Both the position numbers and the translations under genes were made by a program. From an uncultured Alphaproteobacteria bacterium (GTDB taxonomy: Bacteria; Pseudomonadota; Alphaproteobacteria; HIMB59; GCA-002718135), in the NCBI GenBank assembly GCA_902584805.1, contig CACIBE010000004.1, forward strand, positions 62,001 to 126,000: a stretch of DNA of 64,000 nucleotides, given 5' to 3'. Positions within the stretch are counted from its first letter, which is position 1. Every line of letters begins with the position of its first letter. The notes beneath the pieces are model-generated. The model saw only the letters and a list, made by a program, of their open reading frames with translations, searched no databases and was not told the DNA's origin. Positions 11,746 to 27,792 of this stretch are shown here, piece after piece.

Positions 11746-11951
11746 AATAAAAAATTAATCCCACTCACAATTATTGGTAATTAGCAGGAGGAAATAATAC
11801 TGTGAGTGGTAAGAAACATTTAAATTTTATTGTTTACAAATAGATTAATGGAATATTAAATTTTTATAAATTTAATTAATTTTTAACTTCATTAATTCTC
11901 AAATAAATTTTTTAGTTCTTTCAATTTATCAAAAATTGAATCTCTTACTTC
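11746..11951. repeat. Imperfect repeat copy B, including the arsC end
   Basis: Partner of 6961-7166, with hairpin, spacer and arsC C-terminal codons in the same order. Because the arsC gene is intact here, this is probably the source copy. Confidence 0.85.
11761..11809 (-). ncRNA. Possible small structured RNA or long-loop terminator, copy B
   Basis: Inverted repeat CCACTCACA / TGTGAGTGG, with inner pairing TTATT / AATAA. On the minus strand the loop contains TTTCCTCCTGC, complementary to a strong ribosome-binding site. The stem is followed by GATTAATTTTTTATTT, so it may simply terminate the arsC transcript. It is the better of the two copies for either role. Confidence 0.4.
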
Positions 11952-12311: not shown

Positions 12312-12535
12312 GCTAGCAAATAAATATATCCAAAAATAAATAGTGGGAGCTGTAAACCAAAGTTTGTAAGCAGAGCTCTATCTTTTGTCATATAACCAAC
12401 AATTGACCAACCAACAGCACCTGTACCGTGAATAATTATGTTAATTGGATAGGCATTTAAATTTGTTAATAATATTCCTGATAATATTAACGCGGTGCTA
12501 AACCACTTTATTCTATTGATTGACAGATCTGTCAT
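12308..12535 (-). CDS. Small membrane protein of unknown function
   Basis: 75 residues with two or three hydrophobic segments (about 11-27, 32-48 and 55-74) and no motif I recognise. The GTGAVGWSIVGYMTKDRALL stretch between helices resembles small conserved alphaproteobacterial membrane proteins, but I cannot name a family with confidence. It overlaps arsC by four bases and lies 38 bases downstream of the phosphatase gene, so all are probably one transcript. Upstream of the ATG there is a good ribosome site (AAGGAG). Confidence 0.7.
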   Translation of the reverse strand: MTDLSINRIKWFSTALILSGILLTNLNAYPINIIIHGTGAVGWSIVGYMTKDRALLTNFGLQLPLFIFGYIYLLA

Positions 12536-12573
12536 ATTTTCTCCTTACTTCTATAAATTATAAATATTACACT

Positions 12574-13098
12574 TTAATTTAATGCTCTGTAGGAAAAAAT
12601 AAAATCTTCTTGGATTTTTGATTCAATAGCTCCTTTTCTTCTTGATCGCACTAAATCAATAGCTTCTTGTTTTTCATAGTTAAATTCAATAAGTAAAATA
12701 GCAGCTATAGTGCCAGCTCTTCCTTTTCCTCCGCGGCAATGTAAAACTATATTTTTGCCATCTATTAATTCGTTTTTTAGCAAAACTTTTGTTGTCTCCC
12801 ATTTATATTTAAAGTCTTTATCTGGTGCTCCCATGTCATAGATGGGTAAATGGTACCAATGTAATTTATGTTCATAAATACTTTTGACAAATAGAGTTTT
12901 ATTACACAATTTTTCAAATTCGCTATCTTCAACAAAAGAAGTAATGGAGCTACAATTATTATCTTTAAATAATTCTAATTCCTTTTTTAAAATTTTTTCT
13001 TCAAACAAACCATTCGAATTTAGGCCTGGGAAAGAAGTTAATATAATTTTGCCTGCAAATGACTTTGAATCTATAAAATCATAGTTGCTAAATTGCAT
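12574..13098 (-). CDS. Dual-specificity/tyrosine phosphatase-like protein
   Basis: 174 residues with the cysteine phosphatase signature HCRGGKGRAGT (Cys121, Arg127), as in tyrosine, dual-specificity and phosphoinositide-type phosphatases. An upstream general acid may be Asp88 or Asp93 in IYDMGAPD. It directly abuts the PhnZ-like gene with no spacer and is co-directional with it. The substrate is unknown; a small phosphorylated metabolite made by its neighbour is one inference, a protein target another. Its fold class is clear, its role in the phosphonate island is not. Confidence 0.8.
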   Translation of the reverse strand: MQFSNYDFIDSKSFAGKIILTSFPGLNSNGLFEEKILKKELELFKDNNCSSITSFVEDSEFEKLCNKTLFVKSIYEHKLHWYHLPIYDMGAPDKDFKYKWETTKVLLKNELIDGKNIVLHCRGGKGRAGTIAAILLIEFNYEKQEAIDLVRSRRKGAIESKIQEDFIFSYRALN

Positions 13099-13674
13099 TT
13101 ATGCTTGTTTAGCTAAAAAAGATTTTCTTGCATCTTCTAAATAGGGACGAAAATGTTCAACATCGGGAGTTTTTTTATCTAAAATTTTTGCTAAATCATC
13201 AAATCTTCGAAGCTCTACTGCTTTATCCATAAAAGGTTTACTAATAAAATCATCTGCTTCTTCTTTTGTAAAAGGACCACCTTGAACTTTTAACGAAAGC
13301 TTTGATGCCTCTGATAAACTCTCATAATAACCCTCTTCTACACTTGATAAATATCTTTTTGAATCAACATGCGCTCTGATTGGTAAAATAACATCTTCAC
13401 CAAAATATTTTTTTAAAAAATCCGCACCTAAATTTTCATGATGACCATCTTTACCCTCGTGGATGGGATCGCCGTCTTCATATATGAGATGCCCTATATC
13501 ATGGAGCAGGGCAGCTGCTATTGTTGGACCAGGTAATTTATGTTGTTCTGCCAATTCAGCACATTGAAGGGCGTGTTCAAGTTGTGTCACATCCTCATTA
13601 CCATATTGAATATCAGCACCTTTTGTTTTCAAAAGATCTAAGAGATAATCTACAATATTTTCTTCCATCCTCAT
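13099..13674 (-). CDS. PhnZ/TmpB-like HD-domain mixed-valent diiron oxygenase
   Basis: 191 residues, the length of PhnZ. Numbering from the first Met, Tyr24, Glu27, His34, His58-Asp59 and His62 fall where I recall the PhnZ ligands and substrate residues. With a two-residue shift so do His78, His102, Lys106, Ser124, Arg156 and Asp159. PhnZ cleaves 1-hydroxy-2-aminoethylphosphonate to glycine and phosphate with O2; TmpB does the trimethylated analogue. Both normally work after a 2-oxoglutarate hydroxylase, which is not in this window. It lies divergently from phnW. The start could also be the ATG six bases in. General HD phosphohydrolase activity is the alternative. Confidence 0.8.
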   Translation of the reverse strand: MRMEENIVDYLLDLLKTKGADIQYGNEDVTQLEHALQCAELAEQHKLPGPTIAAALLHDIGHLIYEDGDPIHEGKDGHHENLGADFLKKYFGEDVILPIRAHVDSKRYLSSVEEGYYESLSEASKLSLKVQGGPFTKEEADDFISKPFMDKAVELRRFDDLAKILDKKTPDVEHFRPYLEDARKSFLAKQA

Positions 13675-13762
13675 TCATAATTAACTTATTAGAAAATAAA
13701 TTCAATTCCAACTTTAATAAGATTGATCAAATTTATAATAATATTTATTAAGTAAATATTTA

Positions 13763-14860
13763 ATGGATAAAAAATTATTAACCCCCGGCCCTCTCACGAC
13801 ATCGATGTCAACAAAAGAGGCTATGCTTCATGATTGGGGTTCGAGAGATACAAAATTTATTGATCTCAATGCATCAATTAGAGATTCCCTTGTTAGATTA
13901 ATAGATGGTGAAGATAAATATCAATGTGTTCCAATGCAGGGAAGTGGAACTTTTGCCGTAGAGTCGATGGTAAGCTCTCTTACTCAAAAAGATTCTAAAA
14001 TTCTGATTCTGATCAATGGTGCTTACGGACAAAGAATGAAAAAAATGTGCACATATTTAGGTAGAGATTTTATTGAATATGAAGTTGCTGAACATGAAGT
14101 ACATGACATCAATAAAATTGAAGACTTAATTGATAGCAACAACTTAACACACGTCTTTGCTGTATATTGTGAAACAACATCGGGTATTTTAAATCCTATT
14201 GAAGACATTGCAAAATTGGTTGAGGGGAAAAATTTATCGTTATTCATCGATGCAATGAGTGCCTTTGGTGCATTACCCTTAAGCTCAAAAACAATTACTT
14301 TTGATGCTGTAGCCGCTTCATCAAACAAATGCTTAGAAGGTGTGCCAGGTGTTGGTTTCATTCTTGTTAAAAATGAAGTTATTGAAAATGCAAAAGGCAA
14401 TAGTCACTCACTAAGTCTAGACTTGTATGATCAATGGCAAGCAATGGAAAAAAATAAACAATGGCGATTTACACCTCCAACACACGTATTAGCTGCATTC
14501 AACCAAGCTATTGAAGAACATAAAGAACAAGGCGGTGTAAAGGGAAGAGGTAAAAGATATAAAAAAAATTGTGAAATTATTTGTAATGGAATGAAAGAGT
14601 TGGGATTTGAGCAACTACTTCCTGATAATTTACAAGCACCAATTATTATTACGTTTAAACAACCTAATGATCCTAAATTTGACTTTGAGAAATTTTATAA
14701 TGCTCTTAGTGAAAAAAATTTTTTAATTTATCCTGGAAAATTAACAGTCGCAGAAACTTTTAGAATTGGGTGTATTGGTAATTTAGATGAACAAGACATG
14801 ATGGATACAATAAAAGCTGTAAAAGAAGTCGTTACTGAATTGGGATTAACATTAAACTAA
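13763..14860 (+). CDS. phnW: 2-aminoethylphosphonate--pyruvate transaminase
   Basis: 365 residues, a class V PLP aminotransferase of PhnW length. It starts KLLTPGPLTTS; PQ-type substrate segment PMQGSGTFAVES is at 58-69, ETTSGILNP at 137-145, the PLP-pyridine aspartate is Asp163 (FIDAMSAFGA), and Lys189 is in SSNKCLEGVPGVGF. It converts 2-aminoethylphosphonate plus pyruvate to phosphonoacetaldehyde plus alanine. The next steps are encoded by phnY and phnA at 21.1-23.8 kb. Its intergenic region with the PhnZ-like gene is 88 bases. The cupin gene follows after seven bases, forming an operon of three. Confidence 0.93.
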   Translation: MDKKLLTPGPLTTSMSTKEAMLHDWGSRDTKFIDLNASIRDSLVRLIDGEDKYQCVPMQGSGTFAVESMVSSLTQKDSKILILINGAYGQRMKKMCTYLGRDFIEYEVAEHEVHDINKIEDLIDSNNLTHVFAVYCETTSGILNPIEDIAKLVEGKNLSLFIDAMSAFGALPLSSKTITFDAVAASSNKCLEGVPGVGFILVKNEVIENAKGNSHSLSLDLYDQWQAMEKNKQWRFTPPTHVLAAFNQAIEEHKEQGGVKGRGKRYKKNCEIICNGMKELGFEQLLPDNLQAPIIITFKQPNDPKFDFEKFYNALSEKNFLIYPGKLTVAETFRIGCIGNLDEQDMMDTIKAVKEVVTELGLTLN

Positions 14861-14867
14861 CAAAATA

Positions 14868-15500
14868 ATGACAAAAGAAATTGAAATACCATTAGTTAAA
14901 GCAACAAATGAAAATCTTAAAGGATACGGATATTTAATCGATAGTTTTGAAAAAAGTGAAATTGAAATTGTTTCTTGGCCAAAACAAGGATGGCGCGACA
15001 TAGAAGAGGGAACTGGTAATGAAGGTGGAACTACCGAAGGTTCTTTTGATACCTGGTGGCAAGGTGATGTGCTTTATGGACAAAATAATGCTGTCCAACA
15101 TAAGAGCGATTATGAAGTAGATGGGAAATATATACTTGGTTATGCCAATAATCCTGATCAAGAATTACAAAAAGATAAATATACAGACCCAACAAAAATA
15201 TTTTTATGGCATGCAAATTATCATCCTGATGGAGGTCAGCTTTTTTTTCCTGCAGAAAATAAACCATTTATTTGTCCTTTAGCTTTACCAACAGACGACA
15301 TCGAACCAGAACATTTCAAAGCATTTTATTGTGATGGATCAAAAGGTTTGTATATTCATCCAAACATTTGGCATGAAGGGGTGTTTCCAGTTAAAGAAAA
15401 ACAATCATTTCATGGAAAACAAGGTAAAGTACATGCAAGAGTTAGCATCGACTTAAAAGAGGAATTTAATAAGTATATTTATTTTAAAACTGCGATCTAA
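14868..15500 (+). CDS. AllA (ureidoglycolate lyase)-like cupin
   Basis: 210 residues. The N-terminus (LVKATNENLKGYGYLIDSF) and a double-stranded beta-helix half fit the ureidoglycolate lyase family. That half includes HANYHPDGGQLFFPAENKPF, then LYIHPNIWHEGVFP, and ends ARVSIDLKEEF. AllA releases urea from ureidoglycolate, but no other allantoin gene is here and the gene sits seven bases behind phnW. Several histidines in cupin positions could bind a metal. A step in phosphonate breakdown is inferred from position only; the reaction is unknown. Confidence 0.7.
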   Translation: MTKEIEIPLVKATNENLKGYGYLIDSFEKSEIEIVSWPKQGWRDIEEGTGNEGGTTEGSFDTWWQGDVLYGQNNAVQHKSDYEVDGKYILGYANNPDQELQKDKYTDPTKIFLWHANYHPDGGQLFFPAENKPFICPLALPTDDIEPEHFKAFYCDGSKGLYIHPNIWHEGVFPVKEKQSFHGKQGKVHARVSIDLKEEFNKYIYFKTAI

Positions 15501-15520
15501 TTATAAATTTGTATAAAATA

Positions 15521-16309
15521 ATGAAAATTATTCATCTTTCAGACCCTCATATTTATATAGATAAGATTCATGGCATAGATCCTGTCAGTAAATTTAAAAA
15601 AGCATTAAGTCATATAAAAAATAATCATGGTGATGCAGATTTATTTGCCATCACTGGCGATATTACAGACTTAGGTGATAAAGATTCTTATCAGTTATTT
15701 ATAAAAATCATTGATGAAGCAGAGCTGCCAAAGAATTTAAATCCTCAACTCATTATAGGTAATCATGATAACAGAGATGAGTTTAAAATAAACTTTCCTA
15801 ATATTGAAACCGATCCAAATGGCTTTATTCAATACTTTAAGGATATAGATAATAAACGTTTAATTTTTATAGATACTAATCTGATTAATACTCACCAAGG
15901 ACATTACTGTGAAGAGAGGCAAGAATGGTTAAATAATATTTTAGGTAAAACTAATACAGATACGTACATCTTTATGCATCATAATCCACTGGCATTAGTA
16001 AAAGAGGAAAGTGATGGAATAGGATTACAACAAAAAAAAGAGTTTCAACAAATTTTAACTAAAAATAATAAGATAATAAAACATATTTTTTTTGGTCATC
16101 AACACATTACAAGTTCTGGTTCTTATTGTGGTATTACTTTTTCCTCCCCAAGAAGTACTTGGTCTCCTCTAATACCTAACTTTTCAAATGAATATCGTTT
16201 AGGAACGGCTAATACAGATACAAATTATAATGTTGCAATAATTCGATCTGACGCCTTAATTATTCATACAGAGGATTTTTTAAAAACAGAAGTTAATTGG
16301 TTTAAATAA
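15521..16309 (+). CDS. Calcineurin-like phosphodiesterase (CpdA/GpdQ type)
   Basis: About 262 residues from the ATG at 15521; a TTG twelve bases upstream is in frame but less likely. All metal motifs of the CpdA/GpdQ group are visible: HLSDPHI at the start, GDITD near 45, GNHDNRDEF near 84, MHHNPL near 150 and GHQH near 185. Such enzymes cleave phosphodiesters including cyclic nucleotides and glycerophosphodiesters; some act on phosphonate esters. With phnW upstream and a Ugp-like importer nearby, trimming an esterified substrate is a plausible inference. It ends four bases before the convergent methyltransferase-like gene. Confidence 0.8.
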   Translation: MKIIHLSDPHIYIDKIHGIDPVSKFKKALSHIKNNHGDADLFAITGDITDLGDKDSYQLFIKIIDEAELPKNLNPQLIIGNHDNRDEFKINFPNIETDPNGFIQYFKDIDNKRLIFIDTNLINTHQGHYCEERQEWLNNILGKTNTDTYIFMHHNPLALVKEESDGIGLQQKKEFQQILTKNNKIIKHIFFGHQHITSSGSYCGITFSSPRSTWSPLIPNFSNEYRLGTANTDTNYNVAIIRSDALIIHTEDFLKTEVNWFK

Positions 16310-16313
16310 AAAA

Positions 16314-17420
16314 TTATTTTTTTTCAATTACAAATATTTCATTGTTAAAATAAAGGCCTTTATTTTTAGCAACAATATTTTGAACTACTTTTTCGTAATT
16401 TTTTGTTTTTTCTACCTTCATTACTTTATCATCATCCATTTGATTGACATATATGGAGGCATTCCAAGCAGAAAAAACTAATGATGTCGCTATACCTCCA
16501 CTGATTTCTGTTGGTAGAGCTCTCAATTTACATTTAATAATTTTTTTTTCTCCAAAAGATAAACTACTTAATAAATCTTTATCTAAATTTTTCTTAAGAT
16601 AAGAAATGATACTATTTCCAAGAGAAGGAAAAGGGTCCTCTTTTGGCCAAATTTTACGAATTATTTCATTAGCAGGATCTTTTCCTGAAGCATGAATAGT
16701 TAATAATTTCCCTTTTGATTTTAACGCTCGAATCATTGGTTCGATGACATATTTTGATTTCTTTTCTGCTGAAATTCTAGAACGATAAGGCTGTGAAGCA
16801 ATAATAAGATCAAATTTATTATCTGATTTTTTTTTGGTTGGTATTAATTCATTAACATTAAATTCTTGATCATCACGGTAAATAACCATGACTGAAGGCT
16901 CCTTATAAGTATGGTTACCTGACTTTTTATTAATTTCTATATTCCATTTTTTTTCTAAAAATTCATTTTGTTTTCTTAATTGTTGGGCAAATTCAAGAGA
17001 GGTGTCACCTTTTAATTTAATAATATTCCAATTAATTTTTTTCTGTTTAACGTCATTTTTTGATTTTAGGTTTGCGGCTTCAGCGTAGTGTAAATTTGAA
17101 ATTACAAAAACAGTATTCTTATGCTCAACAAACCTATCGGGTAATTTTTCCAAACCTAATCTTACATCTTCAATACTTATTTCTTTTGTGCAAACTAATT
17201 GAGGTACGTTAGGCCTGGCCTCGTGGCACTGACGCATAACATTCATAAGTAAGGAACCATCACCCATACCAGCATCAAATATTTTTATACCAGGTTTTTG
17301 CGGTTTAATTTTATTTACGTGAGGGCGTATCGCATCAGCAATTTGATTTTTTTCATTTGTTGTTGTGACAAATAATAAGTATTTTTGTCTGTTATCATAA
17401 AACCTGAAATTTTTTTTCAT
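16314..17420 (-). CDS. SAM-dependent methyltransferase-like protein
   Basis: 368 residues. A class I methyltransferase SAM loop is visible at about residues 47-55 (IFDAGMGDGSLL), and FDLIIASQPYR near 205-215 resembles the motif IV region. KSKGKLLTIHASGKDP follows as the next strand. Some features recall EgtD-like enzymes, but I cannot assign a family. It is the last gene of a minus-strand run starting at phnA, two bases after the iron alcohol dehydrogenase. Possible roles are methylating a phosphonate headgroup or another small molecule; nothing in the sequence decides. Confidence 0.6.
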   Translation of the reverse strand: MKKNFRFYDNRQKYLLFVTTTNEKNQIADAIRPHVNKIKPQKPGIKIFDAGMGDGSLLMNVMRQCHEARPNVPQLVCTKEISIEDVRLGLEKLPDRFVEHKNTVFVISNLHYAEAANLKSKNDVKQKKINWNIIKLKGDTSLEFAQQLRKQNEFLEKKWNIEINKKSGNHTYKEPSVMVIYRDDQEFNVNELIPTKKKSDNKFDLIIASQPYRSRISAEKKSKYVIEPMIRALKSKGKLLTIHASGKDPANEIIRKIWPKEDPFPSLGNSIISYLKKNLDKDLLSSLSFGEKKIIKCKLRALPTEISGGIATSLVFSAWNASIYVNQMDDDKVMKVEKTKNYEKVVQNIVAKNKGLYFNNEIFVIEKK

Positions 17421-17422
17421 TA

Positions 17423-18535
17423 CTAATAAAGTCCCATTGATTTAGCAGAAGAGATGAAGGCTTCTTTATTGCCAATAAAGTTTTTACCTCGTTCTCCTAA
17501 AAACGCATCATCTACTATATTATTCCATTCTTGAACAGGAACTTTTATTTCATTTAAGTTAAGAGGAACCTCTAAAGAACGCATAAATTCACTCAGATGA
17601 TTTGCGGCATTCTCTAGGTTATCGTTAAAAATTAGTTTTAGTCTTTCTTCAGCTACACTATCAATTCCAACCATACTTTTAGTAATCATGGGTAATGTAA
17701 ATGAGCAAGCAATACCATGTTGAATGCCGTAATTGAGCGTCACAGGGTATGATAGATTGTGCGCAATAGCAGTTTTTGTATTGGAAAACGCTAAGCCAGC
17801 ATGAACGCATGCCAGTGCAATGTTTGAACGTAATTCAACGCTTCTTAAATCTTTAGCGAGAAGTGGTAAATTTTCTAATACTAATTTTGATGCTTGTATT
17901 GCATGAGAAGCAGAAATTGGGTTTGCATTAATATTCCAAATACTTTCCATTGAATGAGAGAGAGCATCTAAACCTGTTGAAATGGTCAAGCCTAAAGGCT
18001 TATCAACCATAATTGATGGATCGATAATTGCTTTTTCTGCATAAAGAGATTTATGCGCCAAAGATAATTTATTGTTTTTTTCTTTATCCCAAATTGTGGC
18101 CCAACACGTAAGCTCACTTGATGTTCCTGAAGTTGTAGGTATTGCAATAATCTTGATTGGATTTTCGACTCTTGGACTTTTCTTATTGCGAACGAAATCT
18201 GTTAGATATTCTTGTTTATCTTTAAAAGCAGCAATTGCTTTAGCTGTGTCTGTAACAGAGCCACCACCTATAGCTAAAATATAATCTACCGATTCATTGA
18301 TTGAAGAAAATTTTTTTTGTAGCTCTAAAATATCCTTATAATCTGGATTAGGTTGAACATCCGTCATAATGGATAGTGGTGGATTTGAAGAAGATTTTAA
18401 TTCATCGCTATATTTTTTAAAAATTTCTTCTGGATGAGTGATTATGATGTAGTTCTTATTTTTAAGAGCATCATGTACTTCTTTAAATCTATTTTCTCCA
18501 AAGATAATTTCAACAGGATTAAAATAATTCCACAT
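17423..18535 (-). CDS. Iron-containing alcohol dehydrogenase, phosphonoacetaldehyde reductase-like
   Basis: 370 residues of the group III (Fe) alcohol dehydrogenase family. The dinucleotide loop is GGGSVTDTAKAIA (about 91-103), then PTTSGTSSEL. Metal residues are in GLDALSHSMES (Asp and His), AIAHNLSYP and IQHGIACSF. Members known from phosphonate clusters (PhpC, PsrA-like) interconvert phosphonoacetaldehyde and 2-hydroxyethylphosphonate. With PhnW, PhnY and PhnA present, oxidation of hydroxyethylphosphonate into the same pathway is the simplest inference. It is 4 bases after the MetE-like gene in the operon. Exact substrate is not proven. Confidence 0.8.
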   Translation of the reverse strand: MWNYFNPVEIIFGENRFKEVHDALKNKNYIIITHPEEIFKKYSDELKSSSNPPLSIMTDVQPNPDYKDILELQKKFSSINESVDYILAIGGGSVTDTAKAIAAFKDKQEYLTDFVRNKKSPRVENPIKIIAIPTTSGTSSELTCWATIWDKEKNNKLSLAHKSLYAEKAIIDPSIMVDKPLGLTISTGLDALSHSMESIWNINANPISASHAIQASKLVLENLPLLAKDLRSVELRSNIALACVHAGLAFSNTKTAIAHNLSYPVTLNYGIQHGIACSFTLPMITKSMVGIDSVAEERLKLIFNDNLENAANHLSEFMRSLEVPLNLNEIKVPVQEWNNIVDDAFLGERGKNFIGNKEAFISSAKSMGLY

Positions 18536-18539
18536 TACA

Positions 18540-19619
18540 TTAAATTGATTTTGCCGCTTTAGTTAAAATTGTCATTTTCTCAATTGCTTGTTCTCGAGTA
18601 AAGAAACCTAAACCACAATCTGGTGCAGCTATTAAGCGGTGTTCATCAATATGTTCAAGTGAATCTTTGATACGAACTCTTACTTCTTCAACAGATTCCA
18701 TTCTGCTTTTTGCAATATCAATAAATCCAAAAATTACTTTTGTTTTAGTAAATTTTTCTAAAAGATTTAAATCATTATGCCTATGTGAATCTTCTAAAGA
18801 TACTTCATCAATAGTTGAATCATCTACAAGTGATGCAATTCTATCATAAGCATCTAAATCAGCCTTTTTATAACCTTCTGAATCTAATGAATTAGGATAA
18901 CCACAACAAATATGGCAAACACGTTGCACTTCTTTAGGTATACCATGCATCATTCTTTCTAAATTTTCCATACCATATGAATGAGCTTCATCGGGCTTTC
19001 TAGCAAATACTGGTTCATCAATTTGAATATACTGACAACCTGCATCTACAAGTGCTTTAACTTCTTTATTAAGGGCTAATGCTAAATCAAAACCAAGTTT
19101 TTTCATGTCATCATAGTAGTTGTTAGCAATTGAATCTGTTATTGTCATTGGTCCAGGTAGGGTAATTTTAACTGGATTTTTTGTAAATTGTTGTGCACTC
19201 TTCCAGTCTAGATGCATACGTATTTCTTTACTTGAAATCGGTGCAACAATAGTTGGAAGATCAGCTTCGAACGCGCCTTGTCTTACTGACTTATGTGTAA
19301 CTTCTTTAAAACTTACTCCATTTAAAAATCGACATTGATATAATACGTAACTCTCACGTCTGACTTCTCCATCTGTTGGAACATCAATACCCGCATTTAC
19401 TTGATCAGTTATAACTTCTTTAATTGCTGCTAAAAATAATTTTTCAGCATCTGCACCTGCAGACTCTAATGCTTTTTCATATGCGCCAGGTGACCAATTT
19501 GATAATAATCCTTTTGACGCTTTTCTCTCTTCTTCTGATTTTGTCCCTAAAAACCAATCTTGAATAGGTGTTTGTTTCGGTTTTGGATAAGCACCTATTG
19601 TAGTTGTTTTAAGAGGCAT
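18540..19619 (-). CDS. Core MetE-like cobalamin-independent methyltransferase
   Basis: 359 residues corresponding to the C-terminal catalytic half of MetE. The zinc site is complete: His236 and Cys238 (VCHICCGYP), Glu276 (SLED) and Cys335 (PDCGLG). It opens TTTIGAYPKP and has TDGEVRRESYV at 82-92. MetE moves a methyl group to homocysteine, but forms lacking the N-terminal half do not use the folate donor in the same way and may take other methyl donors. It follows the binding-protein gene after a hairpin. In a phosphonate operon it could recover methyl groups from a methylated substrate; that is inference. Confidence 0.8.
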   Translation of the reverse strand: MPLKTTTIGAYPKPKQTPIQDWFLGTKSEEERKASKGLLSNWSPGAYEKALESAGADAEKLFLAAIKEVITDQVNAGIDVPTDGEVRRESYVLYQCRFLNGVSFKEVTHKSVRQGAFEADLPTIVAPISSKEIRMHLDWKSAQQFTKNPVKITLPGPMTITDSIANNYYDDMKKLGFDLALALNKEVKALVDAGCQYIQIDEPVFARKPDEAHSYGMENLERMMHGIPKEVQRVCHICCGYPNSLDSEGYKKADLDAYDRIASLVDDSTIDEVSLEDSHRHNDLNLLEKFTKTKVIFGFIDIAKSRMESVEEVRVRIKDSLEHIDEHRLIAAPDCGLGFFTREQAIEKMTILTKAAKSI

Positions 19620-19651
19620 CTATTTTTACTCCCATTTAAATTTAAAATAAA

Positions 19652-19676
19652 ACAGCGGCTTTTATAAAGCCGCTGT
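19652..19676 (-). terminator. Intercistronic hairpin after the binding-protein gene
   Basis: Perfect 11-base stem ACAGCGGCTTT / AAAGCCGCTGT with a 3-base loop, 31 bases past the stop of the binding-protein gene and 32 before the MetE-like ATG. It is followed on the minus strand by TTTTATTTTAAA. It is a terminator or attenuator that would lower expression of downstream genes relative to the binding protein, or protect its mRNA 3' end. Confidence 0.7.
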
Positions 19677-19706
19677 AATAAAAAGTTAATAATAAATAAT
19701 CTCAAA

Positions 19707-20960
19707 TTACATAAGATCGTTTATTTCTTCCATCATTTCTTCTTGGAGATCACCCATATCATCAGCGTCGCCTGTAGCAATTTCTTCTGTGTAATCATAG
19801 ATTACCTGCGTAACAGCTAATCCATTTTCTCCAGGATATGCAAACCAATCTGCAAGAAGTGGAAGTTGTTCAACTGCAGTAAGTTTATTAGGGTTTTTAC
19901 TATAGAAATCACCTAATAATTCATTCGCTGCTTTGTTTGGTGGAACATATCCAGTTGTTTCAGCAACTAATGCAGCACCGATACCTGATGTAATGAACTT
20001 TAAGAAAGTCCATGCAGCATCAACTCTTGCTGGATCATCAGATGTAGACACTAACATTGCAGCGTTTCCACCTGCTGGTAATCTTGCAGGTGTTCCATTG
20101 TTAACTCCAGCCATTCCAGGGAATGGTGCAGTCTTTAAAACAAAGTCTGCCTTTGCAGCATTAACTGAACCCAAGCTTGAAGTAGACCAGAACATCATAC
20201 CAATTGTACCTGCGTTAAACGCAGCTTGACCATCAGCAATTGAATAGTTTGGCATATTACATCCGCTCATGATTGCTTTCATTTGCTCTAACGTTGCAAG
20301 TCCTGCATCACCACCCATATTTACAGCTCCATCTTTAACCATTGGAACATTCTGAGTGTGCATTAATGCTTGGTGGAACCAGTTACCTGTGATGTTCCAA
20401 CCAAAGTATAGAGTTCCTTTACCTGCTGCTTCCAATTTATTACATGCTGCAATAACTTCGTCCCAGTTAGTTGGAATACTATTTACACCTGCTTCAGCTA
20501 ATAAATCCATGTTATAATATCCAACTGGCGTTGATACAGAAAATGGTAATCCATAAACTTCACCACCAAATGTTGAAAGACTTAACATAGCAGAATGGTA
20601 ACCATCTTTTTCAAAAGCAGCTTCTTTTGCAATAAATGGCTCTAAAGACATAGCAATACCTTTGTCAACTAGAGGTGCTTGTCTGTTAAGACCTTGCATT
20701 GTTACATCTGGTAAATTACCTGAAGTAGACTCTCTGAAGATTGTTGCAGTTGCATCCTCATAGTTTTCATAAGTTGCTCTAAATTTAACTTGAATATCTG
20801 GATGTGCTTTTTCAAACTCTGGCATAATAGCTTGGAAAGTTACATCGAATAATCCTGAATAAGGATAAGCAACTTCTATTTCAATAGACTTAGCTGAATT
20901 AACAGAACCATAAAAACCAAAAGCTAATACGGCTGCAAATCCTGTAATTAATTTTTTCAT
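19707..20960 (-). CDS. Family 1 extracellular solute-binding protein, UgpB-like (probable phosphonate or phosphodiester importer)
   Basis: 417 residues with a signal peptide (MKKLITGFAAVLAFGFYGSVNS). The mature part starts IEIEVAYPYSGLFDVTFQAI and is a UgpB/maltose-type binding fold, ending in an acidic tail. UgpB binds glycerol-3-phosphate and glycerophosphodiesters. Here the gene lies in a run with phnA and phnY, so an organophosphonate ligand is a reasonable inference. Its ATPase and permeases are encoded divergently at 24-27 kb. A GGAGGG ribosome site precedes the start. It has its own promoter region with three Pho-box-like units and its own 3' hairpin, so it is probably the most highly expressed gene of the run. 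Confidence 0.85.
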   Translation of the reverse strand: MKKLITGFAAVLAFGFYGSVNSAKSIEIEVAYPYSGLFDVTFQAIMPEFEKAHPDIQVKFRATYENYEDATATIFRESTSGNLPDVTMQGLNRQAPLVDKGIAMSLEPFIAKEAAFEKDGYHSAMLSLSTFGGEVYGLPFSVSTPVGYYNMDLLAEAGVNSIPTNWDEVIAACNKLEAAGKGTLYFGWNITGNWFHQALMHTQNVPMVKDGAVNMGGDAGLATLEQMKAIMSGCNMPNYSIADGQAAFNAGTIGMMFWSTSSLGSVNAAKADFVLKTAPFPGMAGVNNGTPARLPAGGNAAMLVSTSDDPARVDAAWTFLKFITSGIGAALVAETTGYVPPNKAANELLGDFYSKNPNKLTAVEQLPLLADWFAYPGENGLAVTQVIYDYTEEIATGDADDMGDLQEEMMEEINDLM

Positions 20961-21011
20961 TTAATCCCTCCGATTCAAATATAGTATTAATCTAACTCAT
21001 AGCCTCAAAGG

Positions 21012-21040
21012 GTTACAATTTTATTACGAAAATATTACTA
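21012..21040 (-). promoter_or_regulatory. Three-unit Pho-box-like site upstream of the binding-protein gene
   Basis: On the minus strand TAGTAAT, TCGTAAT and TTGTAAC follow each other with exact 11-base spacing (units at 21034, 21023 and 21012 on the plus strand). This is the best match in the window to the CTGTCAT-N4 repeat bound by PhoB. It lies 52 bases upstream of the start codon. Confidence 0.55.
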
Positions 21041-21096
21041 AAAAATAAGCTTATTTTTCCACAGCATTAAGAAAGATTAGAGAAAAACTGGTTTAT

Positions 21097-22536
21097 TTAC
21101 CAAGGTAGCGAAAAGGTTTTTACATTAGTAAAACTTTTCATTGCTTCAATAACACCCTCTTTGTAACCAAGACCTGAATCTTTAATTCCTCCAAAAGGAG
21201 ACATTTCAATTCTATAACCTGGAACCTCCCAAATATTTACCGTACCAACATTTAAACCTTGAATATATTTTTTTGCTCGCATGAAGTTATTTGTACATAC
21301 ACCAGATGATAATCCGAATGCGGTTGAATTAGATATTTTCATTACAGCTTCATCGTCATTAGGCACACGAATGATTGGGATAACCGGACCAAATGTTTCT
21401 TCTAAAACTAATTCACTTTTAGGATCAACATGATCTACAACTATTGGAGGTAACAAAGCACCCTTTCTTCCAGGGTGATATAAAATTTTTGCGCCGTCTT
21501 CTTCAGCCATAGAAACTCTTTTATCAAAAAGTTCTGCAGCTTGAGCATTAACAACTGTACCTAAGTCTGTTTCCATATTCATAGGATCACCAAATTTAAT
21601 TTTCTTTGCATGCTCAAGAGCCATTTCAACAAATTGATCCGCAATGGATTCTTGAACCAATATTCTTTTAACAGCTGTACAACGTTGACCAGAATTTTTC
21701 GTTGCTCCCGTAACAGCTAGTTCAACAGCTTTTATAAGATCATCACCATCTAAGTCATTTAAAACAATTAATGGATCATTACCACCTAACTCAAGAACAG
21801 TTCTTTTGTATCCAGCTTGTTCAGCAATTAATTTTCCTACACCCACACTGCCTGTAAAAGTAATTAGATCAATGTTTGGATTTTTGATCATTTCTGATCC
21901 AATGTCTTGAGGCCATCCAGTTACAACTGAAAACATTTCGGGTGGCAGGCCTGCTTCATATAAAACATCGGCGAGTACCATTGCTGTTAAAGGTGTTAAT
22001 TCTGTTTGTTTACATACAGTACAATTATTAGTTGCAATTGAAGGTGCAATTTTATGCGCTACCATATTCAAAGGATGATTAAATGGGGTGATTGCTGAGA
22101 TTGCCGTTAAAGGTTCTCTTATGGTAAATATTTTTCTGGCTTTTCCATGTGGAGTTAAATCACAAGAAAATATTTCTCCATCATCATGAATACAAAGTTG
22201 AGCCGTTAATGAAAATACATCGAAAGCTCTTCCTACTTCGTATAAAGAATCTTGTTTTGAGATACCAAGTTCTAAAGTAATAATATCAGAAATTTCTTCT
22301 TTTCTTTTAACAAGTACTTCTGCAGCAGTTTGAAGAATTTTTTGTCTCTCATATCTTGTAAGTTTAGGCTGATAATTTGCAGCTATATCTAAAGCCTTTC
22401 TTGCATGCTCTGCGGTACCGGCTGGAACCGTTCCGATTACTTCACCTGTAAAAGGGTACTCAACATTTATTGTTTTATCTGAAGTAACTTTTTCTCCAGC
22501 AATACGCATTGCTTCATTAATCATTTTTTTGTGCAT
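21097..22536 (-). CDS. phnY: Phosphonoacetaldehyde dehydrogenase
   Basis: 479 residues, an aldehyde dehydrogenase with the general-base glutamate in LELGGNDP and the catalytic cysteine in [11 protein letters not shown]. The motif [10 protein letters not shown] and a typical C-terminal [11 protein letters not shown] are also present. PhnY oxidises phosphonoacetaldehyde from PhnW to phosphonoacetate with NAD. The product assignment rests on the one-base stop/start overlap with phnA and the PhnW gene nearby. Other ALDHs of the same family could act on related aldehydes. A gap of 136 bases separates it from the binding-protein gene. Confidence 0.88.
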
Positions 22537-23777
22537 TATAGGGCTCCATTTATTGCATAATAAAATGCATCATAGTTATATAATTGTTTGCTAGTATCTA
22601 AGTTTTGTAATTTTAAATTTGATATGAATGGCACTTCTCTTTCATGGAGTCCTCCATGAGAACGTAAAGGTTCATTTAATCCAGAAAGATTGTGTTTATC
22701 TTCCGATGAACCAATAGTCATAAATTCTGAAGACATACATATAATATCTCCCATTCTATCAGGAGGTAAATTGTAAGTAGAGCATCCTTCATTTTTTGTT
22801 AAAACAACTTCTATATCTTTTATTTCTTTAATAGCATTTACAACTGAATCTACCTTGCTCTTGTCTTCTAAATAAATTGTTGCAAAAGAACCAAGTGAAC
22901 CATGATGAACAACATATGGATCTGTAATTGGTAGGATGACTTTAGCCATGTTTGGTTCAAATTTTTTATCTAAATAATCTTGTAAAAATATTGCATTAGG
23001 TGAACCATCTTCTTTTGATTTTGGTTTCATTCCGTGATCTGCTGTGATGATTATAGAGACATTCTCATTATTTAAAAGACCAATATATTTATCAAACATT
23101 GCATAAAATTTATTTGCTGTTTCATTTCCCGGTGCATATTTGTGTTGAATATAATCCGTAGTCGATAAATACATAATATTTGGTTTAAACTCTTCAAGAA
23201 GTTTTACACCTGCAGCCATTACAAATTCAGAGAGTCCTTCAGAATATACTTCTGGCACTGGCATCCCCAACCAATCGTTTACATTATCTATACCATTGAG
23301 ATCTTTTGTTGCTTGATCAGATTTTTCAGCAGAAAAACAAATAGCTCTCTCATCATCAAAACTTAATCCGTTTCCTAAAAGTGTTCTCAACTTGTCTTTT
23401 GCAGTAACAAGAGCAATTTTAGAACCAGAATTGTAAAATTTTTCAAAAATAGTTGGTGCTCGCATATATTTTGGGTCATTCATCATAACTTCTTCACCAG
23501 TCTCAGGTGTATAAAAGAAGTTTCCGCATATACCGTGTACAGAACTTGGTTGGCCTGTTACAATCGAAATGTTATTTGGATTTGTAAAACTTGGAATAGC
23601 GCTGTGAACAAGTAGGTTTTCACCACTTGCAATTAATTTATCAAGATTTGGTGTAAGATTAGATTTTGATGCTTCTTCGAGATACTCTTTTTGACTACCA
23701 TCAAGGCATATAACAATAGCAGTTTTTGAGAAAGAGCTTGGATATTCTCTTTTATTAATTTCTAAATTATCGGACAC
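22536..23777 (-). CDS. phnA: Phosphonoacetate hydrolase
   Basis: 413 residues of the alkaline phosphatase/nucleotide pyrophosphatase superfamily. Metal residues are visible in ICLDGSQ (about 24-30), the nucleophile threonine in SFTNPNN, then [16 protein letters not shown] and SHGGLHE. Phosphonoacetate hydrolase splits phosphonoacetate into acetate and phosphate and depends on zinc. The length and motif set match, and its overlap with phnY completes the PhnW-PhnY-PhnA route from aminoethylphosphonate. It is the first gene of the minus-strand run and shares a 176-base promoter region with the divergent ABC genes. Confidence 0.92.
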
Positions 23778-23854
23778 GAATTCAACTAATATATATTATT
23801 AAAAATACGAATTTATAGTTATCTGCTAGTTAAACTCAATCATAATTTGAATAT

Positions 23855-23884
23855 TTGTTAATAAAATTGAAATAAAACTGAAAT
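23855..23884. promoter_or_regulatory. Pho-box-like repeats between phnA and the ABC transporter
   Basis: TTGTTAA (23855), TTGAAAT (23867) and CTGAAAT (23878) form a run of similar 7-base units 12 and 11 bases apart. It stands about 70 bases from the ABC start and 78 from the phnA start, so one site could serve both directions. The resemblance to CTGTCAT is moderate. Confidence 0.45.
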
Positions 23885-23953
23885 AAATAGATTTAAAATA
23901 TTCTCAAATTTAATAAAATTTTGTAGATTAAAGTTAAGATACAGGGGGAATGA

Positions 23954-25087
23954 GTGGGGACAATATCACTTAAAAATATTTCAAAGTCATTTGGGTCTAC
24001 ACAAGTACTTAATAATTTGAATGTTGATATAAACGATGGAGAATTCTTAACGTTAGTTGGTCCATCTGGTTGTGGTAAATCTACATTACTTAGAATAATT
24101 GCAGGATTGGAACAGCAGACTTCAGGTGATGTATTAATAGATAATAAAAATGTAAATAGAGTTAGAGCCAGTGAAAGAGATTTGGCAATGGTCTTCCAAT
24201 CATATGCTCTTTATCCTCATCTCACAGTAAGAAGAAATTTAGAAACTCCATTAAGACTCAGGGATTATAATGCATTTGAAAGACTGCCCTTGATTGGTAA
24301 TTTTTCTCCAAGCAAAAAAGAGAAAACAGAATCTATAAATCAATTAGTAAATAAAACTTCTGAAACTCTAAAAATTTCAGAACTATTGGATAGAAAACCA
24401 GGACAATTGTCAGGTGGTCAAAGACAAAGAGTTGCTCTTGGTCGTGCTATGGTTAGAGAGCCTGTTGCCTTTTTAATGGATGAGCCTCTTTCAAATTTAG
24501 ATGCAGCTTTGAGAGTTCACATGCGATCTGAACTATCTGAACTTCATAATTCACTTAAAACTATTTTTGTGTACGTAACACATGATCAAGCAGAAGCGTT
24601 AACTATGTCTTCTAGAATGGCAGTTATGATTGATGGAAATTTATTACAACTAGATACACCTCAAGAAGTATATGATAATCCTTCCTCATTAAGTGTAGCT
24701 CAGTTTGTTGGAAGTCCAAAAATAAATATATTTAAAGGAACTTCGGACTCTGGTGGGACAGTAAGTTTTCTCAACGTTAATTTAAAAAGAAAAAGTTCTG
24801 AAAGTAATACAGATTTACATATTGGTATTCGACCAGAACATTTAGAAATTACAAATGAAAGTAATGAAAATACATTTAGTGGAACAGTTGCATATAGAGA
24901 AAATTTAGGTTCAGATATTTTCTTTCATGTAAATATTGAAGACGGTTCAAATAAAATAATTGTAAGGGGCTTACCACAATTTACTCACCAAATTTCAAAC
25001 GGTTCAAGTGTAAATATAAAAAGAGTTTCAGATAAAGCGTTACTATTTAATCAAGCAGGAATGAGGGTTCAATTTACTAATGCATAA
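23954..25087 (+). CDS. ABC transporter ATP-binding protein, UgpC/MalK type
   Basis: 377 residues. Walker A is GPSGCGKST (about 36-44), the signature is LSGGQ, Walker B is AFLMDEPL, and the switch histidine is in VTHDQAEA. A C-terminal regulatory domain of the MalK type follows (IGIRPEHLEI). I chose the GTG start at 23954, five bases after a GGGGG ribosome site; the nearby ATG at 23950 is out of frame. About 25 extra residues lie between Walker A and the signature motif (FERLPLIGNFSPSKKEKTES). It energises the two permeases that follow and overlaps the first by eight bases. Confidence 0.9.
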   Translation: MGTISLKNISKSFGSTQVLNNLNVDINDGEFLTLVGPSGCGKSTLLRIIAGLEQQTSGDVLIDNKNVNRVRASERDLAMVFQSYALYPHLTVRRNLETPLRLRDYNAFERLPLIGNFSPSKKEKTESINQLVNKTSETLKISELLDRKPGQLSGGQRQRVALGRAMVREPVAFLMDEPLSNLDAALRVHMRSELSELHNSLKTIFVYVTHDQAEALTMSSRMAVMIDGNLLQLDTPQEVYDNPSSLSVAQFVGSPKINIFKGTSDSGGTVSFLNVNLKRKSSESNTDLHIGIRPEHLEITNESNENTFSGTVAYRENLGSDIFFHVNIEDGSNKIIVRGLPQFTHQISNGSSVNIKRVSDKALLFNQAGMRVQFTNA

Positions 25088-26036
25088 TTCAAAAGCTCAC
25101 ATATGGTTTATTGCTCCAGCAATCATACTGATGATAATTATTTTAATTTTTCCTCTTTTTCTTGCAGGAGGAATTTCTTTTACTGACTATAATTTAGGAA
25201 ACAAAACATTCGAGTGGGTTGGACTAGAAAATTATGACAAGATGTTCAATCGAAAAACATATGTCAAAATGATTTGGGCCACAGCGACGTATGTTATTGT
25301 TGTCGTTCCAATTTCTGTTGTACTTGGATTATGTGCTGCAATGCTCTTAAATTCACTAAGGTTTGGCGCTGATATATATAAAACAATTTTCTTTCTTCCA
25401 GTTATGGCAACTCTTCTTGCAATGGCAATTGCATGGGAATTTACTCTTCATCCAACATTAGGAATTGTAAATAGTTTTTTAGCAAATGGGTGTGGGGGAG
25501 TTAGGGAATTCATTCTTGGTTTTCATTGGTTGCCATGGGTAGACTCACAAGAAAGTTGGTATACTGCAGCATGTGCAAACAACATGGATTTTCCATATTG
25601 GTTAAAACAAAAAAATACTGCGATTTGGACAGTATGTTTCATAGGAATTTGGCAGGCTTTTGGTTTTAATATGGTTTTATATTTAGCTGGCTTAACAAGT
25701 ATACCAAGAGAGTTATACCAAGCTGCAGAAATGGATGGGGCTAAATCTACTTGGGAACAATTTAAGCTTGTTACATGGCCAATGCTTGGTCCAACAACGT
25801 TGTTTGTTGTGACTATTACTACAATTAGAACGTTTCAAGTATTTGATACCATCGAAATACTAACCAAAGGTGGTCCATCAAAAACAACGTATGTCATGAT
25901 GTATGCAATCTTTGAAAAAGCTATTCAACAAAACTTAACAAGTATCGGTGCAGCAATCACTGTTGTCTTTATTGGATTTATTCTTGTGTTAACGTTTTTC
26001 CAAAGATATGTCATTGAGAAGAGGGTTCATTATTAA
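25080..26036 (+). CDS. ABC transporter permease, UgpA-like
   Basis: 318 residues with about six membrane segments and the EAA loop ELYQAAEMDGAKSTWEQFKLV that contacts the ATPase. Between the third and fourth helices there is an extra periplasmic stretch of about 50 residues (roughly 138-180). It contains two cysteines (NGCGGVREF and AACANNMDF) and is tryptophan-rich. UgpA and MalF relatives vary in this loop, which faces the binding protein. Overlaps the ATPase gene upstream and shares one base with the next permease gene. Confidence 0.88.
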   Translation: MHNSKAHIWFIAPAIILMIIILIFPLFLAGGISFTDYNLGNKTFEWVGLENYDKMFNRKTYVKMIWATATYVIVVVPISVVLGLCAAMLLNSLRFGADIYKTIFFLPVMATLLAMAIAWEFTLHPTLGIVNSFLANGCGGVREFILGFHWLPWVDSQESWYTAACANNMDFPYWLKQKNTAIWTVCFIGIWQAFGFNMVLYLAGLTSIPRELYQAAEMDGAKSTWEQFKLVTWPMLGPTTLFVVTITTIRTFQVFDTIEILTKGGPSKTTYVMMYAIFEKAIQQNLTSIGAAITVVFIGFILVLTFFQRYVIEKRVHY

Positions 26037-26929
26037 TGGAAGCTAAACAATATATTGGAGAAGGTTGGAAGCATGCAATCTTAATTATTGGTGCAATCGT
26101 AGTGATGCTCCCTTTTTATATGATGGTTTCTATGTCATTAAAATCTCAGCAAGAAATCCAATCAATTTCTGGCGGTCTTATTGGTGCACAAGAAACTCAA
26201 ACGTTTCCCGTATGTGTTAAAACTGGTTATTCAGAAGAAACATGTACAATGAAGCCATATCAATACAACTATTGGTTTGCTTTTGAAAAAGCTCCTATTC
26301 CTAGATACTTAATGAATGGTGTCATTGTTACTTTATCAATCTTCATCATTCAGGTTTTAGTCGCCTTACCGTGCGCATATGCACTTGCCAAGTTACGTTT
26401 TTACGGACGAGAATTTGTTTTCTCGATGGTTTTATTTTGCTTGCTGATTCCCGTTCACGGAATTGCGCTTCCATTATATGTTATGTTGGCCCAGGCAGGA
26501 TTAGTTGACACCTATTCCGCCTTAATACTCCCCTGGACCATATCGGTGTTTGGAATCTTTTTAATGCGGCAATTCTTTATGACTGTGCCCGATGAATTAA
26601 TTGATGCCGCCAGGATGGACGGCATGGGAGAGTACGCAATCGTATGGAAAGTAATGCTTCCAACTGCAATACCAGCGTTACTTGCTTTTGCAATATTCTC
26701 AGTTGTTGCGCACTGGAATGATTATTTCTGGCCTCGTATGGTAATAACAGGAAATAGAGATCTCTTTACTCCACCACTTGGTATAAGAGAATTCAGAGGT
26801 GGGATTGATAGTGACGAATTTGGTCCTATGATGGCTTCAATAGTTACTGTAACTGTTCCTCTTATTGTTGCTTTTATAATCGCACAAAAACGATTTATTG
26901 AAGGAATTACTTTGACAGGCATGAAGTAA
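26036..26929 (+). CDS. ABC transporter permease, UgpE-like
   Basis: 297 residues, six membrane segments, with the EAA loop ELIDAARMDGMGEYAIVWKV. Like its partner it has a periplasmic insert near residues 43-80, with two cysteines (FPVCVKTGYSEETCTMK). The pair of cysteine-bearing loops suggests a disulphide-stabilised contact with the binding protein, which is inference. The protein completes the importer with the UgpB-like protein encoded divergently. Base composition between 26380 and 26660 looks slightly less AT-rich than its neighbours. Confidence 0.88.
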   Translation: MEAKQYIGEGWKHAILIIGAIVVMLPFYMMVSMSLKSQQEIQSISGGLIGAQETQTFPVCVKTGYSEETCTMKPYQYNYWFAFEKAPIPRYLMNGVIVTLSIFIIQVLVALPCAYALAKLRFYGREFVFSMVLFCLLIPVHGIALPLYVMLAQAGLVDTYSALILPWTISVFGIFLMRQFFMTVPDELIDAARMDGMGEYAIVWKVMLPTAIPALLAFAIFSVVAHWNDYFWPRMVITGNRDLFTPPLGIREFRGGIDSDEFGPMMASIVTVTVPLIVAFIIAQKRFIEGITLTGMK

Positions 26930-26943
26930 ATTCTTATCTACTG

Positions 26944-27792
26944 ATGACATTGTCAGTAAATTTTATTTTTATCTTAATTCTTGTTTCTGCTCTATGTCAT
27001 GCAGTTTGGAGTGCTATAATAAAATCAAGCAAGAACCCTTTATCGTTAATGGGTATAACGTCTGTCTTGGAAGTTACTATTTTTTTACCTTTAACATTTA
27101 CTGTTCCATTTCCAACTTTAGAGGTTTGGTATTTTTTAATAGCAACCGTCATCATTCATATCTTCTACAGACTAAATGTTATCTACTCATATAGGTACGG
27201 TGATCTTTCTTACATATATCCAATTTCTAGAGGAAGTTCATGTCTGTTTGTAGCAATCATTAGTATTTTATTTTTAAGTTCTGATATTAGTATTGCTGGT
27301 TTTGTTGGAATATTAATTGTTTGTATTGGATTATTTTTAATTTCTTATTCTAAAAATTTATCTTTTAATTTCAGAGGTTTTGCTCTCGCAATATCAACGG
27401 CTATTCTAATTACTGCTTACACTTTAGTTGACGGAGTTGGGGTTAGACTTTCTGAAAATGGTTTTTCCTATATTTACTGGCTCTTCACACTTAATGGAAT
27501 ACCTTTACTAATTATCGGTTTGATCTCTAAAGATGGTTTACGAAAAAGAGAAACATACACTTTTAGATCTGGGATTGCTGCTGGTGTATTTGCAACAAGT
27601 AGTTACGCAATTGTTGTTTGGAGTATGCAATTTATAGAAATAGCTTATGTCTCTAGTATTAGAGAAATTAGCATTGTGTTTGCTGCAATTATTGGAATGC
27701 TTTTCTTATTTGAGAAGAATGCAAAATCTCGAATAATACCCTCTATTTTAATAGTGAGTGGTATTTCGGTGGTTTATTTTCAAATTCTTTAG
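26944..27792 (+). CDS. EamA/DMT-family membrane transporter
   Basis: 282 residues with about ten hydrophobic helices in two EamA repeats (first repeat to about residue 135, second thereafter). YPISRGSSCLFVAI is typical of the family. It follows the permease after 14 bases on the same strand and could be the fourth gene of that operon. Members export or import small metabolites such as amino acids or nucleotide sugars. A role with phosphonate products is possible but not visible in the sequence. Confidence 0.82.
   Translation: MTLSVNFIFILILVSALCHAVWSAIIKSSKNPLSLMGITSVLEVTIFLPLTFTVPFPTLEVWYFLIATVIIHIFYRLNVIYSYRYGDLSYIYPISRGSSCLFVAIISILFLSSDISIAGFVGILIVCIGLFLISYSKNLSFNFRGFALAISTAILITAYTLVDGVGVRLSENGFSYIYWLFTLNGIPLLIIGLISKDGLRKRETYTFRSGIAAGVFATSSYAIVVWSMQFIEIAYVSSIREISIVFAAIIGMLFLFEKNAKSRIIPSILIVSGISVVYFQIL

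Follow-up and report, generated by a model that had tools for sequence, protein, structure and literature searches.

A layered phosphonate island in an uncultured HIMB59 alphaproteobacterium, with an importer, methyltransferase and alcohol dehydrogenase cassette beside the 2-aminoethylphosphonate genes

The window analysed here is a stretch of 64,000 nucleotides from an uncultured HIMB59 alphaproteobacterium (contig CACIBE010000004.1, positions 62,001 to 126,000), with a GC content of 31% and a host draft genome of 1.37 Mb. It carries a phosphonate island, in which 20 genes at 9318-29613 were scanned with Pfam and NCBIfam protein models at curated cut-offs (Table 1). PhnW, PhnY and PhnA all score above these cut-offs, which makes the island a member of the hydrolytic PhnWYA pathway for 2-aminoethylphosphonate (AEP). 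The original prediction had listed these three enzymes among a set of further genes separated by very short gaps; every gene that it named is found between 12574 and 26929, and the gaps inside strand blocks are indeed short, for example 2 bp between the methyltransferase-like gene and the iron alcohol dehydrogenase (FeADH) gene and 4 bp between the latter and the MetE-like gene (MetE below). Because the gene order recurs across the genus, the arrangement is not a matter of chance. A polyphosphate kinase gene lies at 4861-6960, about 5.6 kb from the island.

Table 1. Genes of the phosphonate island, with positions in the window and the model matches that identify them
Feature	Position	Strand	Layer	Model match or remark
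Cysteine (DSP/PTP-type) phosphatase	12574..13098	-	outside cassette (synteny)	Pfam PTP-SAK; usually adjoins HD oxygenase
HD-domain oxygenase, PhnZ/TmpB kind	13099..13674	-		TIGR03276, 202.8 against a cut-off of 214.6 bits; TmpB, 156.9 against 300 bits
PhnW, AEP-pyruvate transaminase	13763..14860	+	AEP core	PRK13479, TIGR03301, TIGR02326 above cut-off
AllA-like cupin	14868..15500	+	AEP core	PF04115 above cut-off
Calcineurin-type phosphodiesterase	15509..16309	+		PF00149; TTG start at 15509, ATG at 15521
S-adenosylmethionine (SAM)-methyltransferase-like protein	16314..17420	-	adjoins cassette	motif FDAG[MT]GDG; no family above cut-off
FeADH	17423..18535	-	cassette	best model TIGR03405, under cut-off
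Core (folate-domain-less) MetE-like methyltransferase	18540..19619	-	cassette	PF01717
UgpB-type substrate-binding protein (SBP)	19707..20960	-	cassette	SBP_bac_1/8; best NCBIfam model UgpB, under cut-off
PhnY, phosphonoacetaldehyde dehydrogenase	21097..22536	-	cassette and core	TIGR03250 above cut-off
PhnA, phosphonoacetate hydrolase	22536..23777	-	cassette and core	TIGR02335 above cut-off
Importer ATPase, UgpC-like	23954..25087	+	cassette	Ugp model, under cut-off
Permease, UgpA-like	25080..26036	+	cassette	Ugp model, under cut-off
Permease, UgpE-like	26036..26929	+	cassette	Ugp model, under cut-off
EamA transporter, phn_DUF6 kind	26944..27792	+		TIGR03340, 143.2 bits against a cut-off of 288.15

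The structure of the island becomes visible when it is compared across the genus. The methyltransferase-like gene occurs in 78 of 91 genus genomes, the window's own included, and up to 20 kb around it was read in 72 genomes and the window, giving 73 loci; left unread were five genomes with short contigs or fragments (G002, G012, G033, G067 and G080) and the 13 genomes in which the gene had no match. Since the loci were chosen by this gene, its own presence in them reflects selection. Both PhnA and PhnW are held by 65 of the 73 loci, and the other eight, cut by contig ends, were set aside. Among the 65, MetE and the SBP are both present in 48 and both absent in 17, and never occur singly. UgpA and UgpE accompany MetE in 47 of the 48; in the remaining locus, L244, the contig ends inside PhnA. 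FeADH is found in all 48 loci with MetE and in five of the 17 without it (L035, L036, L231, L253 and L260). The cupin is present in all 65, and the phosphodiesterase, which tracks PhnW and not MetE, in 60. Alignment of L253 and L231 to the window shows that the blocks at about 18553-21091 (MetE-SBP) and 23.9-26.83 kb (UgpCAE) are missing, while the PhnY-PhnA pair between them is kept; L254 and L255 also lack most of FeADH.

The island therefore consists of three layers: an AEP core of PhnW and the cupin, usually with the phosphodiesterase; the HD oxygenase, usually with the phosphatase; and the cassette UgpCAE / PhnA-PhnY-SBP-MetE-FeADH. MetE, the SBP and UgpCAE are all present or all absent even though PhnY-PhnA lies between them, so MetE and the importer act together as a single unit. 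This unit is always joined by FeADH, which can also occur without it, and the AEP core is independent of it. The eight genes very probably form one functional cassette, and the chances are about even that the window combines a PhnW-based AEP pathway with a second, self-contained entry cassette built into it. The original prediction, a single broader pathway through all the extra genes, holds in part: the importer does travel as a unit with the alcohol dehydrogenase and a demethylating-type methyltransferase, also in genomes where PhnW was not found, whereas the cupin and the phosphodiesterase track PhnW and the HD oxygenase and phosphatase stand apart from the cassette. Relatives that keep phnW-phnY-phnA without the extra genes, which would have spoken against such a pathway, make up 17 of the 65 loci as regards MetE, SBP and Ugp, but there the genes are missing as a unit.

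For the HD protein the best model is 'phosphonate degradation HD-domain oxygenase', with a weaker TmpB match; both scores fall short of their cut-offs, and no PhnY*/TmpA dioxygenase partner was found among the 20 genes at 9318-29613. The AllA-like cupin is not known to have a role in AEP breakdown. The phosphodiesterase (15509/15521-16309) matches SpdA best among NCBIfam models, at 174.5 of 400 bits, and its best solved relatives are 2zo9 and Rv0805. The EamA gene belongs to the island neighbourhood and occurs also in loci without the cassette.

The methyltransferase-like protein was considered as a cassette member and rejected. A relative with 34-35% identity lies in sister-family loci (L042-L045) where the cassette is absent, and L099 and L101 have MetE-FeADH without the protein; its proposed place in the same pathway is thus not upheld. 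The family is large, with 5108 matches and no informative name among the best 120 of them. In the sister family, the gene is paired with one for an M24-peptidase-family protein.

The cassette also exists without PhnW. A scan of public genomes with MetE gave 502 confirmed relatives, of which the best 80 were used; by MetE identity these comprise 59 loci of the genus type, 16 of the sister-family type and five others. All eight cassette genes are present in all 16 sister-family-type loci, and PhnW in none; among the genus-type loci, 51 of 59 have all eight, and the other eight are truncated loci (5.5-16.6 kb). Across 52 sister-family genomes, no PhnW exceeds the cut-off. Weaker matches (at most 149 bits) occur in 49 and are read as other transaminases, because all 14 control genomes likewise give matches to the PhnW model under its cut-off. 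PhnA is above cut-off in 26 of the 52 and MetE is present in 21, in 20 of which PhnA lies 2.88-2.89 kb away; the last, G130, lacks PhnA and shows no more than a fragment of MetE. G134, whose locus is outside those read, has PhnA but no MetE. L163 and L045 differ cleanly by the 9.67-kb cassette, with flanks 95-96% identical, and its loss is likely in L045, where a few bases resembling the 3' end of FeADH seem to remain. The same cassette and gene order were also met in L129 (NHJW02000015.1), titled Gammaproteobacteria bacterium TMED225 and possibly mis-binned or mis-named.

The other five sister-family genomes with PhnA (G091, G098, G124, G133 and G140) place a flavin adenine dinucleotide (FAD) oxidoreductase of 374-378 aa after PhnA-PhnY, above the TIGR03364 cut-off in 5/5. 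This arrangement continues with an EamA-type protein and, in L174, the one locus scanned, also a TIGR03261/TIGR03262 importer. The sister family has two alternative arrangements predicted to make phosphonoacetaldehyde, one with the FAD oxidoreductase and one with the FeADH cassette. Phosphoenolpyruvate (PEP) mutase was found in none of 23 genomes tested (20 cassette-bearing sister genomes, G134, G000 and G070), and the sister cassette loci show no linked candidate source of phosphonoacetaldehyde other than FeADH. With neither PhnW nor PEP mutase found and FeADH as the sole linked candidate, these loci point to 2-hydroxyethylphosphonate (HEP) as the substrate.

FeADH scores 362.4 bits against the phosphonate-associated Fe-ADH model TIGR03405, under the cut-off of 423.7, and the next model reaches 159 bits. 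Its motifs LDALSH at 189, AIAH at 256 and QHGIA at 272 supply the Asp and His residues expected for iron. Entry of an alcohol, HEP, through FeADH as a predicted 2-hydroxyethylphosphonate dehydrogenase is somewhat probable.

The MetE-like protein consists of the catalytic domain only, with a match to PF01717 and none to Meth_synt_1. It is a putative core methionine synthase: the folate domain is absent and the zinc ligands His-Cys-Glu-Cys are kept. Across 19 MetE sequences, the zinc ligands H236, C238, E276 and C335 and the homocysteine-binding residues E85 and D201 are invariant. No counterpart of the folate-stacking Trp of MetE is seen. Residues were matched by our own reading of alignments against the accessible text of PMC7857596. 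The nearest solved protein, 3RPD, is named there as a MesD protein, and the window MetE resembles MesD in lacking the folate domain and keeping the ligands. It differs from MesD in sitting with an importer and phosphonate genes and in the equivalent of Ser433, which is Ser in P0150/P0179 and mostly Ala. DUF1852 (MesX), the partner of MesD, was not among the identified window neighbours in the 9318-29613 scan, a search that did not extend to the genome.

The idea that MetE is the sole methionine synthase finds no support, because 16 of 17 genomes also carry PF02574 proteins. A second MetE, 49% identical, in the window's own genome adjoins a PMH-like protein, with phosphonate monoester hydrolases among the best solved relatives of the latter. 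In this locus, L158 (G000:C2:9801-29800), the MetE-core gene at 9986-12578 stands beside the PMH-like enzyme, of the sulfatase family, and a Dpp-type importer. Families of P-ester hydrolases thus recur beside MetE relatives, namely PF00149 and PF01663 proteins in L123, a locus outside the order, and the PMH-like protein beside the paralogue.

A route can be proposed from these parts. The UgpB-type system would import a masked (methyl- or otherwise esterified) HEP, and the Zn-dependent core MetE would move the methyl group of the imported compound to a thiol, probably homocysteine, so that its carbon would be saved as methionine. FeADH would oxidise the freed HEP to phosphonoacetaldehyde, and PhnY and PhnA would finish the conversion to acetate and phosphate. 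For free HEP, FeADH would be enough without MetE, and this would account for FeADH occurring without MetE while MetE never occurs without FeADH in the 65 complete loci. This sequence of masked-HEP import, demethylation by MetE, FeADH, PhnY and PhnA is the most economical pathway in which every cassette gene has a part and PhnW is not needed, and it may prove right or wrong with equal probability. That MetE acts on the imported compound is possible, with chances slightly short of even, and that this compound is a phosphonate methyl ester is doubtful. The fullest version, in which the importer takes methylated HEP from marine organic matter, the folate-independent MetE makes methionine and FeADH-PhnY-PhnA release phosphate and acetate free of methane and ethylene, would be a hydrolytic HEP pathway and is offered as a tentative proposal that is itself rather unlikely. 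More generally, a swappable ocean-bacterial cassette probably takes up a masked alcohol-type phosphonate, strips it, oxidises it and feeds the phosphate-releasing enzymes without PhnW.

Substrates of this kind are known from the sea. Esters of methylphosphonate (MPn) and HEP are established in the polysaccharides of marine high-molecular-weight dissolved organic matter, whose cultured degraders use C-P lyase, with release of ethylene from HEP, according to the accessible text of PMC5649143. By one account (PMC8931226, in the part available), no phosphonates are more abundant than MPn and HEP in the high-molecular-weight organic phosphorus of the sea. For PbfF, a third suggestion made in 2025 was that it oxidises HEP to phosphonoacetaldehyde, and this activity was excluded for the enzyme, as far as the available portion of PMC12366243 goes. 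O-methyl-HEP in phosphonoglycans was not found in open-licence literature.

Several observations weigh against the proposed route. The importer and FeADH fall below their family cut-offs; for the importer, the scores are 64.5/411 (UgpB), 384/432 (UgpC), 103.5/335 (UgpA) and 128/297 bits (UgpE). The homocysteine-carboxylate residue, Ser433 in MetE, is Ala in the window. The state of MetE changes at least six times on the PhnW tree and three times on the PhnA tree, and well-supported independent pairs of presence and absence are few (three and two, respectively), so that a sign test cannot reach 0.05; in these pairings UgpA follows MetE in nearly all, and FeADH in about 2.2 of three on the PhnW tree and 1.2 of two on the PhnA tree. 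The search for other sources of phosphonoacetaldehyde covered loci and not the 20 whole sister genomes, so unlinked sources lie outside it.

MetE relatives outside the order add to this side. Those in L113, L123, L126, L129 and L130 are relatives at 59-72% identity, and in two of them MetE and UgpCAE stand apart from PhnYA. L123 reads UgpC-A-E-SBP-PF00149 phosphodiesterase-MetE-PF01663 enzyme, its PF00149 protein being 34% identical to the window phosphodiesterase; L130, whose contig breaks off immediately upstream, reads aldehyde dehydrogenase-UgpC-A-E-SBP-MetE. At a threshold of 1e-60, phosphonate-type FeADH was not found in the genomes of these two loci (G523 and G524), which hold PhnA elsewhere, and is present in G525, G526 and G527, although G525 (behind L113) has MetE and FeADH without PhnA. 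The FeADH of G526 adjoins PhnC, two PhnE (above cut-off) and a PhnD-like protein (245.5 of 261.1 bits); nearby is a PF01663 enzyme that shares 53% identity with the MetE neighbour of that family in L123. In the class-wide sample, 11 of 385 genomes match the MetE profile at 1e-120 or lower, a count that takes in weaker relatives and paralogues, and five of the 11 have PhnA; excluding the window's order, two of eight (G143 and G451) have PhnA. A phylum-wide sample of 398 gave two MetE matches, one being the window's genome. Most identified neighbours of MetE relatives at 46-53% identity have no connection with phosphonates, and the family taken together is therefore not specific to these compounds; in two high-GC loci, L155 and L156, the open reading frames were badly called. 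An exception is L162 (1490-15260), where the vicinity of a 48% relative includes an ABC importer, an HD-domain protein (39% identical to the window's), a TauD dioxygenase, a GMC oxidoreductase and an aldehyde dehydrogenase, and which is possibly a trimethyl-AEP/betaine cluster.

One alternative is that the importer and MetE serve an ordinary methylated or phosphodiester compound, such as one like glycerophosphocholine, and that MetE is a general folate-independent methionine synthase merely sharing the island. UgpB-family importers classically take glycerol-phosphate compounds. The separation of the unit from PhnYA in L123 and L130 fits such a role, the aldehyde dehydrogenase of L130 matches a betaine-aldehyde dehydrogenase model best (under cut-off), and the island of L231 holds, at 2434-8437, a Ugp-type importer with a protein that partly matches a glycerophosphodiesterase model. 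MetE is nevertheless never without FeADH in 48 loci, PhnY-PhnA is enclosed in the cassette in two families, and the cassette is either there or missing as one 9.7-kb block. PhnA also occurs in four of the five MetE genomes placed outside the order by their record titles, against 44 of 385 in the class, but one of these (L129) carries the sister-family cassette and one is SAR324. On balance, an ordinary substrate is considered unlikely.

It is less likely still that phosphonoacetaldehyde in the sister family comes from an FAD oxidoreductase or PbfA not linked to the cassette, with the cassette FeADH handling another alcohol. Related genomes do place the TIGR03364 oxidoreductase beside PhnA-PhnY, and a distant (23%) relative of the aminophosphonate oxidoreductase of L260 lies near the cassette in one of 20 loci, L181, although outside the cassette. 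The TIGR03364 protein of L174, however, has no match in the 20 cassette loci tested, and the two arrangements occur together in none of the loci read. Least probable is a reductive, PhpC-like FeADH that would make HEP for synthesis out of phosphonoacetaldehyde derived from AEP, which is how phpC in AEP operons has been read in print (PMC9381506, available text), since the sister family shows neither PhnW (0/52 above cut-off) nor PEP mutase (0/21) to supply the aldehyde and FeADH is linked to the importer and PhnY-PhnA.

The preferred reading, a HEP-directed cassette, is set in an island that exchanges its parts. Between the window and L037, the DNA running from phosphatase to phosphodiesterase is 91-98% identical and that starting with the MFS gene 94-97%, while the middle falls to 81% (methyltransferase-like gene), 82% (PhnY), 72% (PhnA), 64% (EamA) and 84% (small FYDLN gene). 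Low identity between highly similar flanks indicates that the middle block was exchanged as a piece, as expected of a flexible island. Other modules occupy related islands. L260 has a TIGR03261/TIGR03262 AEP importer (above cut-off) and an aminophosphonate oxidoreductase near TIGR03329 (601.6 of 632.8 bits). L034 has a choline-type importer: the 254/336/315/662-aa transporter of L031/L034 was considered as AepXVW and rejected, because the 662-aa permease of L034 passes TIGR03416 (choline ABC). The insert with a Ugp-type importer and a glycerophosphodiesterase-like protein sits between cupin and phosphodiesterase in some relatives, L231 among them. A plasmid search with MetE gave no matches, and no viral contigs were confirmed.

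The terminal PhnY-PhnA steps and the 'a la carte' principle are already known. Like the PhnWYA pathway and its variants (PMC10590968), the cassette uses the last two enzymes, phosphonoacetaldehyde as a hub and plug-in enzymes that widen the substrate range; unlike them, it couples a proposed FeADH entry to an importer of the UgpB type and a core MetE, a combination in none of the four routes in that paper's accessible text. The PhpC phosphonoacetaldehyde reductases (PMC9381506, in part) share with the window FeADH the Fe-ADH superfamily and the proposed substrate/product pair, but the window enzyme is proposed to be oxidative and catabolic, and no PEP mutase was found in the 23 genomes tested. 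AepXVW (PMC8316502, portion available), which takes up 2AEP, is likewise an ABC importer of AEP islands, represented here by the TIGR03261/TIGR03262 proteins of L260 and L174, above cut-off in both; the window SBP is of the UgpB type, with no TIGR03261 match listed. The flexible phosphonate islands described for HIMB59 (PMC10734472) probably belong to the same order as the window and likewise come and go, but in the available text they are C-P lyase islands, and the main text of that paper contains no mention of phnA, phnW, methionine synthase, ugp or alcohol dehydrogenase. No description of a catabolic HEP dehydrogenase or of this gene set, and nothing on the name PsrA, was found in open-licence literature. 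The terms hydroxyethylphosphonate and HEP do not occur in a 2023 review (PMC10574752), nor do cupin, phosphodiesterase or methionine synthase in the AEP gene-context papers PMC8154272 and PMC10590968.

The cassette may bear on a clade that is reported to be abundant in the ocean. In the accessible text of PMC11366302, the AEGEAN169 clade is reported at up to 6% of the South Pacific Gyre community, and 30% of Ca. Nemonibacter in this clade are limited to phnY and phnA. Together with the FAD-oxidoreductase version, the cassette could explain such genomes. If the proposal is true, a hydrolytic HEP route in an abundant clade would be a silent sink, core methionine synthases would gain a phosphonate-linked methyl donor, and the cassette could complete the 'partial' phnY and phnA pathway of one AEGEAN169 clade.

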